Assembly (NCBI RefSeq): GCF_014635665.1
Contig: NZ_BMDG01000002.1
Coordinates: forward strand, 124,001 to 188,000
Direction of reading: 5' to 3'
Source of the DNA: Isoptericola cucumis
GTDB taxonomy: Bacteria; Actinomycetota; Actinomycetes; Actinomycetales; Cellulomonadaceae
Length of the DNA: 64,000 bases
Of this stretch, positions 20,230-26,521 are shown piece after piece. The position numbers and the translations under genes were made by a program. Position 1 is the first letter of the stretch, and each line of letters starts with the position of its first letter. The notes under the pieces are model-generated. The model did no database searches. It was not told the DNA's origin and saw nothing but the letters and a program-made list of their open reading frames with translations.

Positions 20230-20256
20230 CCATCCGGGAGCGTCCCGGCACCGAAC
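20230..20256 (+). promoter_or_regulatory. SigK-type promoter of sigK (autoregulation)
   Basis: CCATCC (20230-20235), 15 nt, CCGAAC (20251-20256). The same pair and spacing recur before the fasciclin gene and dipZ. The -10 ends 7 nt before GTG 20264. As I recall, SigK promoters of M. tuberculosis have CCATCC and CCGAAT elements. Confidence 0.8.
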
Positions 20257-20263
20257 CCCTTGC

Positions 20264-20851
20264 GTGTTGCGGCAGACTGTCCTCGTGCCGCCTCCCACGA
20301 CCACGCCGGTCGACGCCGCGCTCGTCGCGTGCGCGGACGGCGACCCGACCACGTTCGGGCCCGTCTACGACGCGCTCGCGCCCGTGGCGTACGGCACGTC
20401 GCTGGGGGTGCTGCGCGACCCCGACCATGCCGCCGAGGTGACCCAGGAGGTGATGGTGGAGGTGTGGCAGACAGCGGCGCGGTTCGACCCGGCCCGCGCC
20501 TCCGCGCGCACCTGGGTCGTGACGCTCGCACGCCGCCGGGCGGTGGACCGGGTCCGCGCCGAGCAGTCCCGGCGGCACCGGGACCAGCGCGACCTCGACA
20601 CGACCGTCGCCGGCGCGCCCCGCGACGTCGTCGCCGACGACGTGGAGCGCCGGCTCGAGGGTGCGGCGGTGCGCCGCTGCCTCGAGTCGCTGACGCCGAC
20701 GCAGCGCGAGGCCGTGGTCGAGGCGTACTACGGCGGGCGCACGTACCGGGAGGTCGCCGAGCGGCTCGGCGCCGGGCTGCCCACGATCAAGAGCCGGATC
20801 CGCGACGGCCTCGGCCGCCTGCGCGACTGCCTGGGGGTGGCCCGTGGCTGA
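20264..20851 (+). CDS. sigK: ECF RNA polymerase sigma factor SigK
   Basis: 195 aa. Region 2 (FGPVYDALAPVAYGTSLGVLRDPDHAAEVTQEVMVEVWQTAARFDP, then RTWVVTLARRRAVDRVRAE) and region 4 (LESLTPTQREAVVEAYYGGRTYREVAERLGAGLPTIKSRIRDGLGRLR), typical of SigK-group ECF factors. GTG 20264 is chosen because it sits exactly where a transcript from the CCATCC/CCGAAC promoter should begin; GTG 20285 is the other candidate. The gene overlaps rskA by 8 nt and should be held at the membrane by it. Its targets are probably itself, the fasciclin gene and dipZ. Confidence 0.92.
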   Translation: MLRQTVLVPPPTTTPVDAALVACADGDPTTFGPVYDALAPVAYGTSLGVLRDPDHAAEVTQEVMVEVWQTAARFDPARASARTWVVTLARRRAVDRVRAEQSRRHRDQRDLDTTVAGAPRDVVADDVERRLEGAAVRRCLESLTPTQREAVVEAYYGGRTYREVAERLGAGLPTIKSRIRDGLGRLRDCLGVARG

Positions 20852-21563
20852 CGACGACACGGCCCGCGTGGCCTGGGACCTGCTGCCGGCGTACGCGCTG
20901 GACGCGGTCGACGACCTGGAGCGCCGGGCCGTCGAGCGCCTGCTCGGGTCCGACCCGCAGGCTCGACGTGCCCTCGACGAGTACCGCGACGTGGTCGCGG
21001 CCTTCACCGTCGACGAGGCCCCGCCCGCTCACCTGCGCGGCGAGGTCCTGGCCCGCGTCGCCCGCACGTCGCAGACGGCGCCGCGTGGCCCGGTGACCGC
21101 GCCGGCGCGACCGCCCCGGCGGCGTCGTGCGCTGGTGGCGGCGCTCGCGGCCGCGGCGGCCGTCGCGGTCGCCGTCCCGACGACGATCGCCGTGCGGGAG
21201 CACGGGGAGACGGTCCGCCTGGAGGCGCAGGCCGACCGGGTCGCGCAGATGCTCGCCGACCCGGACGCCCGCCTCGTGACGGGACCGATCGCCGGGGGTG
21301 GCGAGGCGACGGCGCTGGTCTCGGGTGACGACGTGCTCGTCAGCGCCGCCGGGATGCCCGACCCGGGCGAGGGGCACGACTGGCAGCTGTGGGTCGTGGC
21401 CGGCGGCTCGCCCGAGTCGGCCGGCCTGATGCCCGCCGCCACGGGCGGCGTCTCGCGGGCGCTGGTCGAGGGCGGGGCGGGCGAGGTCGTGGCCGTGACG
21501 CTGGAGCCTGAGGGAGGGTCCGAGCAGCCGACGACGGACCCCGTCGTCGCGCTCGAGACCTGA
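20844..21563 (+). CDS. rskA: Anti-sigma-K factor RskA
   Basis: 239 aa, single-pass membrane protein. The N-terminal helical domain (LLPAYALDAVDDLERRAVERLLGSDPQARRALDEYRDVVAAFTVDEAPP) binds the sigma factor. A transmembrane helix follows at about residues 93-115. The extracytoplasmic RskA C-terminal domain (GDDVLVSAAGMPDPGEGHDWQLWVVAGGSPESAGLMP) comes after it. Regulated proteolysis of RskA releases SigK in mycobacteria. GTG 20844 overlaps the end of sigK, implying coupled translation. Confidence 0.93.
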   Translation: MADDDTARVAWDLLPAYALDAVDDLERRAVERLLGSDPQARRALDEYRDVVAAFTVDEAPPAHLRGEVLARVARTSQTAPRGPVTAPARPPRRRRALVAALAAAAAVAVAVPTTIAVREHGETVRLEAQADRVAQMLADPDARLVTGPIAGGGEATALVSGDDVLVSAAGMPDPGEGHDWQLWVVAGGSPESAGLMPAATGGVSRALVEGGAGEVVAVTLEPEGGSEQPTTDPVVALET

Positions 21564-21628
21564 TCCCGCCGGCGCCGCGACACCGCGTGCGCGAGCGGCT
21601 GCGCCGTGAGCCGTCGGAGCGCACGACG

Positions 21629-21661
21629 AGGGCCGCCGCACCCCCTGCGTGCGGCGGCCCT
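21629..21661. terminator. Terminator hairpin 1 between rskA and fasciclin gene
   Basis: Perfect 12-bp inverted repeat (21629-21640 / 21650-21661), 9-nt loop. Confidence 0.65.
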
Positions 21662-21676
21662 GCGAGCCTCGTGGTA

Positions 21677-21707
21677 CGGGTGCACCGACCTCCCGTCGGT
21701 GCACCCG
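21677..21707. terminator. Terminator hairpin 2 between rskA and fasciclin gene
   Basis: Perfect 13-bp inverted repeat (21677-21689 / 21695-21707), 5-nt loop, 7 bp from the fasciclin stop. Together with hairpin 1 it separates the convergent genes. Confidence 0.75.
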
Positions 21708-21714
21708 GGTCCGG

Positions 21715-22407
21715 TCACATCGGCGGCATGAGCACCGAGTCGACGAGGTAGACGGTCGCGTTCTGCGTCATGACGCCACCGCAGACGATGTTCGCGTCGT
21801 TGACCTTCATCTCGTCGCCGGAGCCGGTGACCTCGACGGTGTCGCCCTGCACGGTCTCGTGCTCGCCGGCGATGTCCTCGGGCAGGATCTGGCCGGGCAC
21901 CACGTGGTAGGTGAGCACCGTGGTCAGCAGGTCCGCGTCGGTCGACAGCGTGTCGAGCGTCTTCTCGTCCACCGCGGCGAACGCGTCGTCGACCGGGGCG
22001 AAGACGGTGAACTCGTCGCCGTTGAGCGTGTCGACGAGGTCGACGTCCGGGTTGAGCTCGCCGCTCACCGCGGAGGTCAGCGTGGTGAGCATCGGGTTGT
22101 TGGACGCCGCCACGGCGACGGGGTCGGTCGACATGCCGGTGATCGAGCCGGCGCCCTCCGGCACCTCCTCGGCGTAGGCGTCACAGCCCGCGCCGACCAG
22201 GTTGGCGGCGGGGTCCATCTCCATGTTCTCGTCCATGTCCTCGGAGCCTTCCTCGGCCCCCTCGGACTCGGCGGGCGACTCCTGCGTCGTCGACTGCTCG
22301 GAGGCCGGGTCCTCCGTGCCCGAGTCGGAGGAGCACGCGGCGAGCCCCAGCAGGGCCAGGGTGGCGAAGCCGGCGGCGGCGGTGCGGGTACGAGTGCGAA
22401 CGTTCAT
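21715..22407 (-). CDS. Fasciclin-domain lipoprotein (MPT83/MPT70-like)
   Basis: 230 aa. Lipobox LLGLAAC with the acylated Cys at residue 25, then an acidic Ser/Glu-rich linker and one FAS1 domain ([76 protein letters not shown]). MPT83 and MPT70 of M. tuberculosis are SigK-regulated fasciclin proteins beside dipZ, the same context as here. ATG 22407 has GGAGAGA upstream; a GTG at 22452 lies 5 nt after the SigK-type -10 and could give a longer form. Cell-surface adhesion or redox-linked roles are inferred. Confidence 0.93.
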
Positions 22408-22457
22408 CGGTCTCTCCTTGCGTCGTCGCCCCACGTCTCCGGGGCGCTTCACCGGAG

Positions 22458-22484
22458 GTTCGGAGCCGGATCCTGGCCGGATGG
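22458..22484 (-). promoter_or_regulatory. SigK-type promoter of the fasciclin gene
   Basis: On the minus strand, CCATCC (22484-22479), 15 nt, CCGAAC (22463-22458). Same sequence and spacing as at sigK and dipZ. Confidence 0.8.
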
Positions 22485-22498
22485 GTCCCGACCGGGAT

Positions 22499-22525
22499 CC
22501 ATCCGGACGGGGCGCCGCTCCGAAC
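22499..22525 (+). promoter_or_regulatory. SigK-type promoter of dipZ
   Basis: CCATCC (22499-22504), 15 nt, CCGAAC (22520-22525). The -10 ends 7 nt before ATG 22533, so the mRNA is predicted to be leaderless. Confidence 0.8.
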
Positions 22526-22532
22526 GACGGGC

Positions 22533-24389
22533 ATGGAGACCTTGGTCCTGATCGGTCTGCTCGGTGGCCTCATCACCGGCATCTCGCCGTGCATCCTGCC
22601 GATGCTGCCGGTGATCTTCTTCGCCGGCGGCGTCCAGGGCGCACGTCCCGCGACGTCGCTGCGTTTCGACGTGCCGACGGCCGTGCGCACCGGTGCGGGC
22701 GGCAGCGCCGTCTCCGTCCTCGATCCCCCTGCGCCGTCGGGAGCCGGGCCTGCCGCCCGGCCGCGGGCGCGAGCGCGGTCGTGGCGCCCCTACCTCGTCA
22801 TCGCGGGCCTGGTGCTGAGCTTCAGCGTGATGACGCTGCTGGGCTCGCTGATCCTCGGCGCGCTGGGTCTTCCGCAGGACCTGCTGCGGTGGGTCGGCAT
22901 CGCGCTGCTGGCGGCGCTCGGGATCGGGATGGTCGTGCCCCGGTTCGAGGAGGTGCTGGAGCGACCGTTCATGCGTCTCGCGTCGCTCGGCTCTCGCCGC
23001 GGCCGGAGCGGGTCCCCGAGCCAGGACCGGGGCGCGTTCCTGCTCGGGCTGGGCCTCGGCGTGCTGTACGTCCCGTGCGCGGGCCCGGTGCTGGCGGCGA
23101 TCACGGTCGCCGGCGCCACGGGCGAGATCGGTCCGGGGACGGTCGCCCTCACGGTGTCGTTCGCCGTCGGGGCGGCGATCCCGCTGCTCGTCTTCGCGCT
23201 CGCCGGGCGCAGGGTCGCAGAGCGGGTGGCCTCGTTCCGCCGGCACCAGCGGGGGATCCGGGTCACGGGCGGCGTCGTCGTGCTCCTGCTCGCGGGGGCC
23301 CTCGCGCTGAACCTGCCGGCGCAGCTGCAGCGAGCGCTGCCCGACTACACCGGCGCGCTCCAGCAGCAGGTGGACGAGAACGCCTCCGTACAGGAGGCGC
23401 TGGACCTCGGCGGCATCGTCACCGACGCGAACCGCGAGCTGTCGAACTGCTCCAACGGGTCGACCGAGCTCGCGGACTGCGGGACGGCGCCGCCGCTGAC
23501 GGGGATCACGCAGTGGCTGAACACGCCGGGCAACCAGGCCCTGGACCTGGCGGACCTGCGGGGCAAGGTCGTGCTGATCGACTTCTGGACCTACTCGTGC
23601 ATCAACTGCCAGCGCGCGATCCCGCACGTCAACGCCTGGTACGAGGCCTATCGGGACGCCGGCCTCGAGGTGATCGGCGTGCACACGCCGGAGTTCGCCT
23701 TCGAGCGCGAGACCCGCAACGTCGTCGCGGGCGCGCGCGACCTCGGCGTCGAGTACCCGATCGCCCAGGACAACTCCTACTCCACGTGGACCGGCTACCG
23801 GAACCGGTACTGGCCGGCCGAGTACCTGATCGACGCCGAGGGCACCGTCCGCTACATCAAGCACGGCGAGGGCGACTACGCCGTGACCGAGCAGCACGTC
23901 CGCGACCTGCTGCGGGCGGCCGACCCGGGCGTCGAGCTCCCCGCGCCGACCGACGTCGATGACGCCACCCCGGGCGACGAGACGACCCCGGAGACCTACC
24001 TCGCGCTGAACAAGGTCTTCAACTACTCCGGCGGCCCGAAGTACGGCTCCGGGGAGCAGGCCTACGAGCACCCGGACGAGCAGCCGACGGACACGTTCTC
24101 CCTCGGCGGCACCTGGGAGGCGGACTTCCAGGGCGCGACCGCGGCCTCGGACGACGCGACCCTCCGGCTGGCATACCGGGCGACGGACGTCTTCGCCGTC
24201 CTCGGTGGCGAGGGCACCGTGACGGCGCGGGTGCTCGACGAGGACGGCTCCGTGCGGGAGGAGCGCGAGATCGACGTCACCGGGAACCCGACCCTCTACG
24301 ACGTGCTGCGCGGGGACGGGCAGACCGAGGGCACCGTCGAGCTCGACGTGCCCGAGGGCGTGTCGGTGTACACGTTCACCTTCGGCTGA
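22533..24389 (+). CDS. dipZ: DipZ: CcdA-like membrane protein fused to thioredoxin domain
   Basis: 618 aa. Residues 1-270 are a CcdA/DsbD-type electron-carrier membrane domain with the paired cysteines C20 ([11 protein letters not shown]) and C182 ([11 protein letters not shown]). Residues ~335-475 form an extracytoplasmic thioredoxin-like domain with CINC (C356, C359) in [19 protein letters not shown]. The last ~140 residues are the beta-rich C-terminal domain of DipZ proteins. It passes reducing power across the membrane, probably to surface proteins such as the divergent fasciclin lipoprotein. Two extra cysteines (C316, C326) lie in the linker. SigK control is inferred from the promoter. 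Confidence 0.93.
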
Positions 24390-24481: not shown

Positions 24482-25105
24482 GTGCGCAACGACGGGCGTC
24501 CTGGGGTGTGGCGGGTGCGGCGCTCGACCTTGCTGATCGTCGGGGTCCTGGTTCTCCTGGCCGCCGCCCTTGCCGGGTGGTGGGGGTTGTCGGCGAGCGC
24601 CGGGGTGCGGTCGGGCTCGTTCCAGACGGGGAGCACGGGCCACCCGGACGAGTGCGCGTTCCCCGACGACGACTTCTGGGCCCTCTTCGCCCGGGACGAG
24701 GAGGTCGTCGCCATGCTGACGGTGCGTGGCGACCCCCGATGGTCGGTCGAGGTGACGAGCCTGCGTCCGGAGGCGTTCCGGTTCGACCGCCGCGTCGTCG
24801 GGCCCGACGACGGCTTCACGTTCCACGACCCGTCGGACGGGCCGCCGCCCGAGGTGGAGACCACGGACCGGGTCGTCATCCCGCCCGGCAGCGAGGCCGC
24901 GCTGTGGATCGTCTCCCCGCTCGACGACGACGCCACCGGAGGGGCGGACGCCCGCGTCGGGGTGGATCAGGCGCCCATGCGGGTCCGGTCGCTCGGGATC
25001 GCGCGGGACTCGACGATCGACTTCGACCGGACCCTCTGGGTCAGCGGGCTGGACAGCGACTCCGCCGAGTTCCGGAGCCAGCTCGAGGGACTCTGCGCGC
25101 GCTGA
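24482..25105 (+). CDS. Hypothetical membrane-anchored protein
   Basis: 207 aa, not recognised. A basic N-terminus is followed by one transmembrane helix (residues ~16-38, LLIVGVLVLLAAALAGWWGL), so the rest probably lies outside the membrane. The outer part is beta-rich and acidic, with two cysteines (one in DECAF, one in the C-terminal LEGLCAR) that could form a disulfide. It sits after the dipZ terminator on the same strand and is convergent with the 25121 gene. No clue to function. Confidence 0.75.
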   Translation: MRNDGRPGVWRVRRSTLLIVGVLVLLAAALAGWWGLSASAGVRSGSFQTGSTGHPDECAFPDDDFWALFARDEEVVAMLTVRGDPRWSVEVTSLRPEAFRFDRRVVGPDDGFTFHDPSDGPPPEVETTDRVVIPPGSEAALWIVSPLDDDATGGADARVGVDQAPMRVRSLGIARDSTIDFDRTLWVSGLDSDSAEFRSQLEGLCAR

Positions 25106-25120: not shown

Positions 25121-26521
25121 TCACGACCAGCCCTCCGCCGCCTGCACCCACGGGCCGACGCGCACCTCGGCGCCGTCGAGCACGTCCAGCCCGCCGGCGT
25201 CCCCGCCGTCCGGGGACGTCGGTGTCAGGGGTACAGGGTCCGCGCCGGGGACGGGGACGACGTCCACGACGGTCGTGACGTCCGGGTCGTTCGTCGTTGA
25301 CGTCGCACGCCACTGCACGGTGGCCATCGCCCGCTCGCCGGGGGGCACGACGACGCGGCCGGGCACGACGCCGGGCGCCGACGGCTCGACGGTCACGTCG
25401 CGCTGCGGCGCGCCGCCCGAGCTCCGGAACACCAGGCCGGGCACGCCGTCGAGGGCGCACGGCCGGTCGGCGACGTTGCGGGCGAGGACCGCGAGGTAGC
25501 GGCTCCCGGCGGCGGCGTCCGGCGTGCTCAGGGACAGCTCGAGGTCCTCGGCCGCGCAGGCGGCCGGTCCGTCGCGGCCCTCGTCGGGCCAGGGCTCGAC
25601 TCCCGCCGGCAGGGGCACGGTGTGCTCCTCGGGCTCGGGCGGTGCGGACCGGGCGACCCAGCCCTCGACGCTCGTCTCGTAGCCGGGCTCCCACAGCGTG
25701 TACGCGAGGGGCGCGCCGCCGACGGTGCGCCGCGGGTCGTCCAGCCAGCGGGTGAGGGCGTCCGTCTCGGGCGACGTCGCCGGCCCGGCCAGGTCGACCT
25801 GGAGGCCCAGGACCACGCCGTCGGCCACGACCGTGCCCTGGGGAGCCTGCGCGCCCACGGAGACGGACGCGACGCCCGGCAGTGCGGCCGCCTCGACCGC
25901 GAGCCGCGCCACCGCCGCGTCGGGCACCCGGCCGGACGTGTCGTACCGCAGGGTGCCGTCGGCGGTGCGCAGGGAGGCGGCGATCTCCCGCTCGGCGGCG
26001 GTCTGGGCGAGCCGGACGAGCGCGTCGCCGTCGGGCGTGTCGGCGCTGGCACCGCTGACGCGCGTCGCGCCCGCCTGCCACAGCACGTAGGCGTCCTCGA
26101 CGGCGGACGCGTCGCCGTCCTCGGCCACCGACGCCGTCAGCGGGTACACCTCGACACCGTGGACGGTTCGCGGGCTCCCGGCGTGCACCGTCGTGGCGTG
26201 GGACAGCTCGCGCACCCCGGTGACCTTGGCCGCGGCGAGCTGAGCGTCCGCCAGCGCGGCGGCCTCCCGGGCTGCCTCGGGCGTGAGCCCTTCGGCGAGC
26301 ATGACCTCCGCGACGGCGCGGCCGACGTCGCCGTCCTTCGCGTCGTCCAGCGTCACCTCGTAGCCGGTCACGCCCACGGACACGACACCGGGGACGTCGG
26401 CGGCCCGCCGCGCGGCGTCCCGCAGCTCGTCCGGGACCGGGTCCCAGGGGCGCCATACGACGATCGTCGCTGCCATCAGGACCAGGGCCGCCACCAGCAC
26501 GAACGTCCGTCGACGGGTCAC
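25121..26521 (-). CDS. Membrane-anchored protein with C-terminal DUF4232-like domain
   Basis: 466 aa. N-terminal signal anchor (RRRTFVLVAALVLMAATIVVW). Two repeated alpha/beta segments follow (DVPGVVSVGVTGYEV and ALPGVASVSVGAQAP), as in proteins that contain BON/forkhead-like repeats. The last ~150 residues (CAAEDLELSL, GSRYLAVLARNVADRPCALDGVPGLVFRS) match the DUF4232 pattern, with its conserved Cys pair. Extracytoplasmic; function unknown. It is convergent with the 24482 gene and divergent from the glycan operon at 26672. Confidence 0.75.
   Translation of the reverse strand: MTRRRTFVLVAALVLMAATIVVWRPWDPVPDELRDAARRAADVPGVVSVGVTGYEVTLDDAKDGDVGRAVAEVMLAEGLTPEAAREAAALADAQLAAAKVTGVRELSHATTVHAGSPRTVHGVEVYPLTASVAEDGDASAVEDAYVLWQAGATRVSGASADTPDGDALVRLAQTAAEREIAASLRTADGTLRYDTSGRVPDAAVARLAVEAAALPGVASVSVGAQAPQGTVVADGVVLGLQVDLAGPATSPETDALTRWLDDPRRTVGGAPLAYTLWEPGYETSVEGWVARSAPPEPEEHTVPLPAGVEPWPDEGRDGPAACAAEDLELSLSTPDAAAGSRYLAVLARNVADRPCALDGVPGLVFRSSGGAPQRDVTVEPSAPGVVPGRVVVPPGERAMATVQWRATSTTNDPDVTTVVDVVPVPGADPVPLTPTSPDGGDAGGLDVLDGAEVRVGPWVQAAEGWS

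Follow-up and report, generated by a model that had tools for sequence, protein, structure and literature searches.

How far does the regulon of the sigma factor SigK, familiar from Mycobacterium tuberculosis, extend to Isoptericola cucumis (Cellulomonadaceae), and how do the transcripts of such a regulon begin? In the stretch of DNA analyzed here (64,000 nt of contig NZ_BMDG01000002.1; hereafter, the window), the gene order is aroG–sigK–rskA–fasciclin lipoprotein gene (minus strand)–dipZ (plus strand). An initial annotation of this DNA proposed that SigK and RskA govern sigK, the fasciclin gene, and dipZ, and this proposal is supported by gene identity, promoter conservation, and gene co-occurrence, all of which are observed in the sequences. 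We consider it highly probable that the locus represents an orthologous SigK-RskA regulon with three promoters, transcription initiation at about the eighth nucleotide after the −10 element, and constrained mRNA 5′ ends. As a regulon, the locus is an ordinary and well-supported example of what has already been published; the layer at the mRNA 5′ ends was unexpected.

The sigK gene (20264 to 20851, plus strand) encodes an extracytoplasmic function (ECF) sigma factor that narrowly passes the NCBIfam model NF007228 (226.8 bits; cutoff, 226) and has SigK chain 4nqw as its best PDB match (E = 7e-42); the paired cysteines found at positions 133 and 183 in M. tuberculosis are present at the aligned positions (codons 20678 to 20680 and 20828 to 20830, plus strand). 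Directly behind sigK and overlapping its end lies rskA (20844 to 21563, plus strand), whose product, an RskA-type membrane anti-sigma factor, scores well above the cutoff for PF10099 (74.2 bits), scores 27.0 bits for PF22618 (cutoff, 27), and matched no solved chain in the PDB search. The fasciclin gene (21715 to 22407, minus strand) encodes an MPT70/MPT83-type lipoprotein, as judged by PF02469, a cysteine pair, and the match to MPT70 structure 1nyo (E = 1e-57). The product of dipZ (22533 to 24389, plus strand) combines a CcdA/DsbD-type membrane domain, an extracytoplasmic thioredoxin domain, and a C-terminal domain (PF02683, PF00578, and PF17991) and matches the solved DipZ chains 5cyy and 2hyx with E values of 7e-120 and 1.1e-119. 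We take 4nqw (SigK), 1nyo (MPT70), and 5cyy/2hyx (DipZ) to be M. tuberculosis structures.

Three promoters of the form CCATCC-N15-CCGAAC precede these genes: P1 of sigK-rskA (20230 to 20256, plus strand; predicted transcription start, or +1, at 20264), the fasciclin promoter (22458 to 22484, minus strand; predicted +1 at 22450), and the dipZ promoter (22499 to 22525, plus strand; predicted +1 at 22533, the A of the ATG). The more permissive pattern CCATCC-N13..19-CCGAAY matches the window exactly three times, always with N15 and CCGAAC, compared with a shuffled mean of 0.06, and none of 100 dinucleotide shuffles reached three. The start codons of the fasciclin gene and dipZ bound a gap of 125 bp (22408 to 22532) in which the −35 boxes of the two divergent promoters lie 14 bp apart. 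Across the whole host genome, exact N15-CCGAAC was found three times, in all three cases at the sigK locus, and the backward-pattern control was found 0 times; over 58 genomes, host included, this control matched in three genomes, once each. Therefore, what the initial annotation had reported about the three sites, their uniform 15-nt spacer, and their back-to-back arrangement in the 125-bp gap is borne out by the scans and coordinates, and the genome-wide search for unrelated intergenic matches was likewise favorable. Widening the spacer to N12-19 gave seven matches in the host genome. The other four all have N14; one lies inside a long reading frame resembling a subtilase (named by eye), and the other three lie within or span predicted reading frames, so that no further regulon members were found in this genome. 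One of those three (L006) stands 4 nt 5′ of an in-frame ATG.

The promoters are conserved among relatives. In a host-family sample of 30 sigK, 25 fasciclin, and 23 dipZ genes, a SigK-type promoter with at most one mismatch precedes 29/30, 25/25, and 23/23 genes, respectively, and an exact one precedes 23/30, 24/25, and 16/23. The spacer is 15 nt at 28 sigK, 22 fasciclin, and 23 dipZ genes and 16 nt at the rest, and the letters preceding the −10 element are GC plus mostly A or G at sigK and CT or TT at the fasciclin gene. Among 80 named SigK loci, the pattern CCATCC-N10..21-CCGAA[CT] gave 85 exact matches (78 with N15, 4 with N16, and 3 with N11), compared with a single match to the backward pattern; at least one exact N15 site is present in 58 of the 80 loci, and in 45 it lies within 500 bp upstream of sigK. 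The initial annotation had also remarked on a −10 element ending in AAC rather than AAT. This ending is real at our locus, and it is a clade preference rather than a peculiarity of the locus, because the last −10 letter of exact N15 sites is C in 35/35 cases in named host-family loci and T in 37/43 cases (C in 6/43) in the other named loci; one host-family fasciclin promoter outside the named-locus set ends in T. C versus T could not be traced to a particular SigK residue, as many columns differ between the two groups and are confounded by ancestry.

The genes also co-occur. In the 58 genomes, 33 have a SigK-type gene at E < 1e-30; weaker ECF matches occur in every genome, and a broken copy in G022 was left out. 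Strong fasciclin matches (E of 1e-20 or better; G001 and G032, whose matches are no longer than a signal peptide, were not counted) are present in 26 sigK-type genomes and 0/25 others (Fisher test, 2e-10). Full-length dipZ (E < 1e-100; 53 genomes match at 1e-3, mostly via the thioredoxin domain alone) is present in 18 sigK-type genomes and 0/25 others (Fisher test, 2e-6). dipZ is thus an optional member of the regulon (18/33 sigK-type genomes). The view of an ancient circuit of sigK, rskA, dipZ, and the fasciclin gene, put forward in the initial annotation, therefore holds for the regulon as such and is overstated otherwise, since dipZ is optional and the circuit is already described in PMC7509140.

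Some copies in this sample are irregular. In the broken G022 copy (L071:674-1461), three in-frame stops interrupt the sigK stretch and an rskA match comes next; the G022 genome has no exact N15-CCGAAC site. G019 has a second SigK-like paralog (L054:2338-2865; 54 to 56% identity to the window SigK) about 5 kb from its closer sigK, and the RskA search found a match beside the closer sigK only and none beside the paralog. In G266, dipZ (L244:4461-6070) is split into two adjacent pieces with a fasciclin gene on either side, reflecting a frame break or an assembly error. Behind dipZ in the window are two hypothetical genes, 24482 to 25105 (no Pfam match) and 25121 to 26521 (DUF4232).

In relatives, the same site is found before other genes. 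Among 20 genome-scan matches outside sigK loci that were picked by eye for target reading, 11 precede CHRD-type genes, 4 precede DUF4383 genes, and 1 precedes a DUF1775/YcnI gene; no target was evident for the other 4. In an independent CHRD set, 19 of 20 matches were examined; 13 have the exact site and 2 more have it with one mismatch, and all 13 full-length host-family CHRD copies have the exact site. DUF4383 is a family with many paralogs, in which 32 matches (30 with a locus) yielded exact sites at 7/30 and one-mismatch sites at 2 more. The letter-permutation control for the CHRD and DUF4383 sites had high maxima because it included permutations equivalent to the motif. At the G019 sigK locus, an exact site precedes each of a CHRD gene and a DUF4383 gene (both in the counts above), and a Ferritin_2 gene has a site with one mismatch. 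When two CHRD members were tested against the Pfam domain, one scored 22.2, below the cutoff of 24.1, and the other scored 34.3, above it. CHRD genes occur in 17 sigK-type genomes and in G015 (86% complete), leaving out a 64-residue match of G030. Neither the CHRD nor the DUF4383 queries matched anything in the host genome, whose known set therefore stays at three promoters.

Further sites were noted in individual relatives. At L122:2461 (Micromonospora endolithica), a SigK site precedes a gene that by eye resembles one for a CHRD-type secreted protein, and CHRD membership in the regulon may thus reach another family; at L149:2686 (Georgenia subflava), the gene behind the site seems, by eye, ferritin-like. 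A predicted lipoprotein of 429 to 485 amino acids with a SigK site lies upstream of sigK in L057 (7344-8630), L098, L099, L103, and L149; the L057 member, which was tested, had no Pfam match.

The distance from promoter to start codon suggests where transcripts begin. In all 23 host-family dipZ genes, the end of the −10 element is 7 nt from the ATG, and those 7 letters vary widely; given this constant distance, we predict a leaderless dipZ mRNA with +1 at its own ATG. At sigK, the predicted P1 +1 (20264) is an in-frame GTG in the host, and the sigK leader is short and fails the stem score (see below) there and in the closest relative, G010; translation could start at GTG 20264 (leaderless from P1) or at GTG 20285 (both plus strand). 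A second promoter-like −10 element, CAGACT (20273 to 20278, plus strand; possible P2), stands 6 nt before GTG 20285. The pattern A.ACT-N6-RTG is found upstream of 27/30 host-family sigK genes and was the best of 256 four-letter patterns (median, 0), and the remaining three genes have the same element 7 nt before the start. The letters TCGA lie 17 nt upstream of the P2-like −10 element in ten relatives and are absent from the window. The P2 element is possibly a housekeeping −10 element, which would yield a second, leaderless sigK mRNA.

Where there is a leader, a stem-loop is often predicted near its 5′ end. That of the host fasciclin mRNA (22427 to 22446, minus strand) has 7 pairs (one G-U) and a 6-nt loop and begins at +5. 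A stem score that 10% of 6,000 random windows from the same loci pass was passed by 16/29 sigK, 23/25 fasciclin, 9/12 CHRD, and 3/5 DUF4383 leaders and by 0/23 host-family dipZ copies. In predicted folds of host-family sigK leaders, a GTCCCGG-type stem begins at +1 in 14/29; in another three (L053, L084, and L092) it begins at +2 or +3. The best stem of fasciclin leaders begins at +4 to +7. In an alignment of 8 of the 12 CHRD leaders, picked for carrying the stem and with one base-shifted (L163, L054, and L166, with no such stem at +1, were left out, and the stem letters of L169 repeat those of L168), 6 cells are altered on both sides of the stem, compared with a shuffle mean of 1.9, and 0/500 shuffles reached 6; covariation was 0.377 compared with 0.220, and slid controls were lower. 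CHRD pairing is thus kept through compensatory change, with G-U pairs retained, in these 8 selected leaders, which are related rather than independent. A mixed set of sigK and CHRD leaders (16 rows, two base-shifted), whose rows are not all homologous, also covaries. In leaderless actinobacterial mRNAs, the start codon is at +1, and in ompA-type protective stem-loops, the stem is at the mRNA 5′ end; here, as predicted from sequence, both forms would be tied to the regulon of one sigma factor, and the fasciclin mRNA may be protected by the stem-loop predicted at its 5′ end or close to it.

Other explanations have to be weighed. Some other ECF sigma factor, or more than one, might recognize the three sites, with SigK as one user only; ECF promoters overlap in general, and the host genome (G000) has five matches to the SigK query, SigK included, and hence other ECF-like genes. 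The congeners without sigK (G001, G004, G011, and G014; 99 to 100% complete) speak against this idea, as their exact sites number 0, 0, 1, and 0 and they have neither full dipZ nor a strong fasciclin match, although they have kept other ECF-like genes, and we regard such a shared readership as very unlikely. The leaderless dipZ mRNA faces a challenge of its own, namely, that transcription starts elsewhere or translation starts from a downstream codon and that the 7-nt spacing is merely inherited. The dipZ sequences do share descent, and in 5/23 host-family copies an in-frame TTG follows 9 nt later. However, the 7 nt are free to vary in letters yet constant in number, a constancy of length not shared by fasciclin and sigK leaders, and the same distance to an ATG recurs at a Dactylosporangium sigK (L125) and, behind rskA, at Micromonospora genes that resemble Ser/Thr kinases by eye (L096:7383 and L097:7349). 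An inherited spacing with a different start therefore seems unlikely to us, and we retain the leaderless dipZ mRNA as the preferred prediction.

Several observations count against the regulon with constrained 5′ ends as we propose it. The margin by which SigK passes NF007228 is tiny, an exact N15 site is missing from 22 of the 80 named SigK loci, and one host-family sigK (L057) has no motif directly upstream but has one before the preceding gene. Outside the host family, where 15 dipZ starts were readable (2 in distant genes and 13 in 20 loci of other families), 12 do not have the 7-nt spacing (the 2 distant genes and 10/13 of the other-family loci); the three that do (L230, L234, and L235, probably mycobacterial by gene order) have boxes with 2 or 3 mismatches. 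The stem score was failed by 13/29 sigK leaders, that of the host included. Compared with per-sequence shuffles, sigK leaders folded with a mean z of −0.53 and only 4/29 passed, because GC-rich DNA folds well regardless; folding z-scores are too weak as proof of the sigK stem in such DNA and were set aside for position and covariation. The CHRD rows were chosen for having the stem, and their sequences are kin. Finally, among the 16 passing sigK leaders are 10 whose best DNA-level stem extends 1 to 2 pairs beyond +1 on the upstream side; either +1 can thus be placed only to within one or two bases, or the element is a DNA dyad. Such dyads, acting as operators of some regulator at the start site rather than as RNA elements, would also account for a sigK stem sequence that is nearly invariant across 12 aligned leaders, as expected for a protein site. 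On the other hand, the stem letters differ among sigK, CHRD, DUF4383, and fasciclin leaders while the position stays near +1, and CHRD stems are altered on both arms. We regard operators as rather unlikely and favor stem-loops in the mRNA.

With the regulon read in this way, RskA would retain SigK at the membrane, and freed SigK would start transcription at the three CCATCC-N15-CCGAAC promoters. SigK-driven expression of the sigK-rskA operon would amount to positive autoregulation, and SigK would also drive the MPT70/83-type fasciclin gene and dipZ. With initiation at or beside the eighth nucleotide after the −10 element, the dipZ mRNA would begin at the ATG; short stem-loops at or close to the 5′ end of the fasciclin mRNA and, in roughly half of the relatives examined, of the sigK mRNA may be protective; and a basal leaderless sigK mRNA may come from the second −10-like element directly ahead of the sigK start. 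DipZ is predicted to move electrons outward to surface thiols. Both SigK cysteines are kept in 59 of 70 chosen proteins, the same 11 lacking both; the two fasciclin cysteine positions are kept in 34/35 and 35/35 aligned sequences; and DipZ has six conserved cysteines, one N-terminal position being readable in 23/25 only because of gaps. According to PMC7509140, the SigK-RskA complex is stabilized when the SigK cysteines are oxidized, their reduction releases SigK, and Rip1 processes RskA. It is plausible that SigK would be set free under reducing conditions and that DipZ would then hand electrons to surface thiols in a loop, and a role of the fasciclin protein as a redox client would fit its conserved cysteines.

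The mycobacterial SigK promoter boxes are the same as those found here. The mycobacterial SigK-RskA regulon also shares with our locus the sigma/anti-sigma pair, the two SigK redox cysteines, and close MPT70 and DipZ homologs. It differs in that, here, all genes are at a single locus, the −10 element ends in C, and there is one fasciclin gene rather than two, and relatives of the host add CHRD and DUF4383 genes. The Nocardia and Rhodococcus sigK loci L102 and L106 to L109 share the CCATCC-N15 site before sigK or a fasciclin gene, in all five cases with CCGAAT in contrast to CCGAAC here, and the two aligned Nocardia SigK proteins (L106 and L120) lack both cysteines, unlike the host SigK. The Nocardia sequenced in PMC7509140 have a truncated rskA and no mpt83, according to section 12 of that paper. 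The paper also describes an mpt83-sigK-rskA cassette with a SigK site conserved even in Gram-negative bacteria, and the SigK circuit is therefore known rather than new.

What goes beyond the initial annotation is the predicted leaderless dipZ mRNA, the predicted stems near +1, the putative P2-like element of sigK, and the candidate members in relatives. In the partly available literature that was searched, we found no description of a leaderless dipZ (let alone a family-wide one) or of stems near +1 for the mycobacterial regulon, of stems on SigK-dependent mRNAs in general, or of CHRD or DUF4383 genes under SigK, an absence that is itself unproven, and the novelty of the mRNA 5′-end layer is provisional. 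We speculate, and rate this as possible rather than probable, that SigK of the host family dictates how most transcripts of its regulon are built: they would be either leaderless or headed by a 5′ stem-loop of separate origin in unrelated genes. Selection would then act on promoter and mRNA end as a unit, and the transcripts would share a long-lived or translation-coupled fate.

Overall, a tuberculosis-type regulon could be studied in a soil relative that has three promoters only. If the predicted starts and stems are true, the host family would offer an unusual case in which a constrained mRNA 5′ end is common to the targets of one sigma factor; for CHRD and DUF4383 proteins, regulon membership, if true, would supply a cell-surface context for their function.

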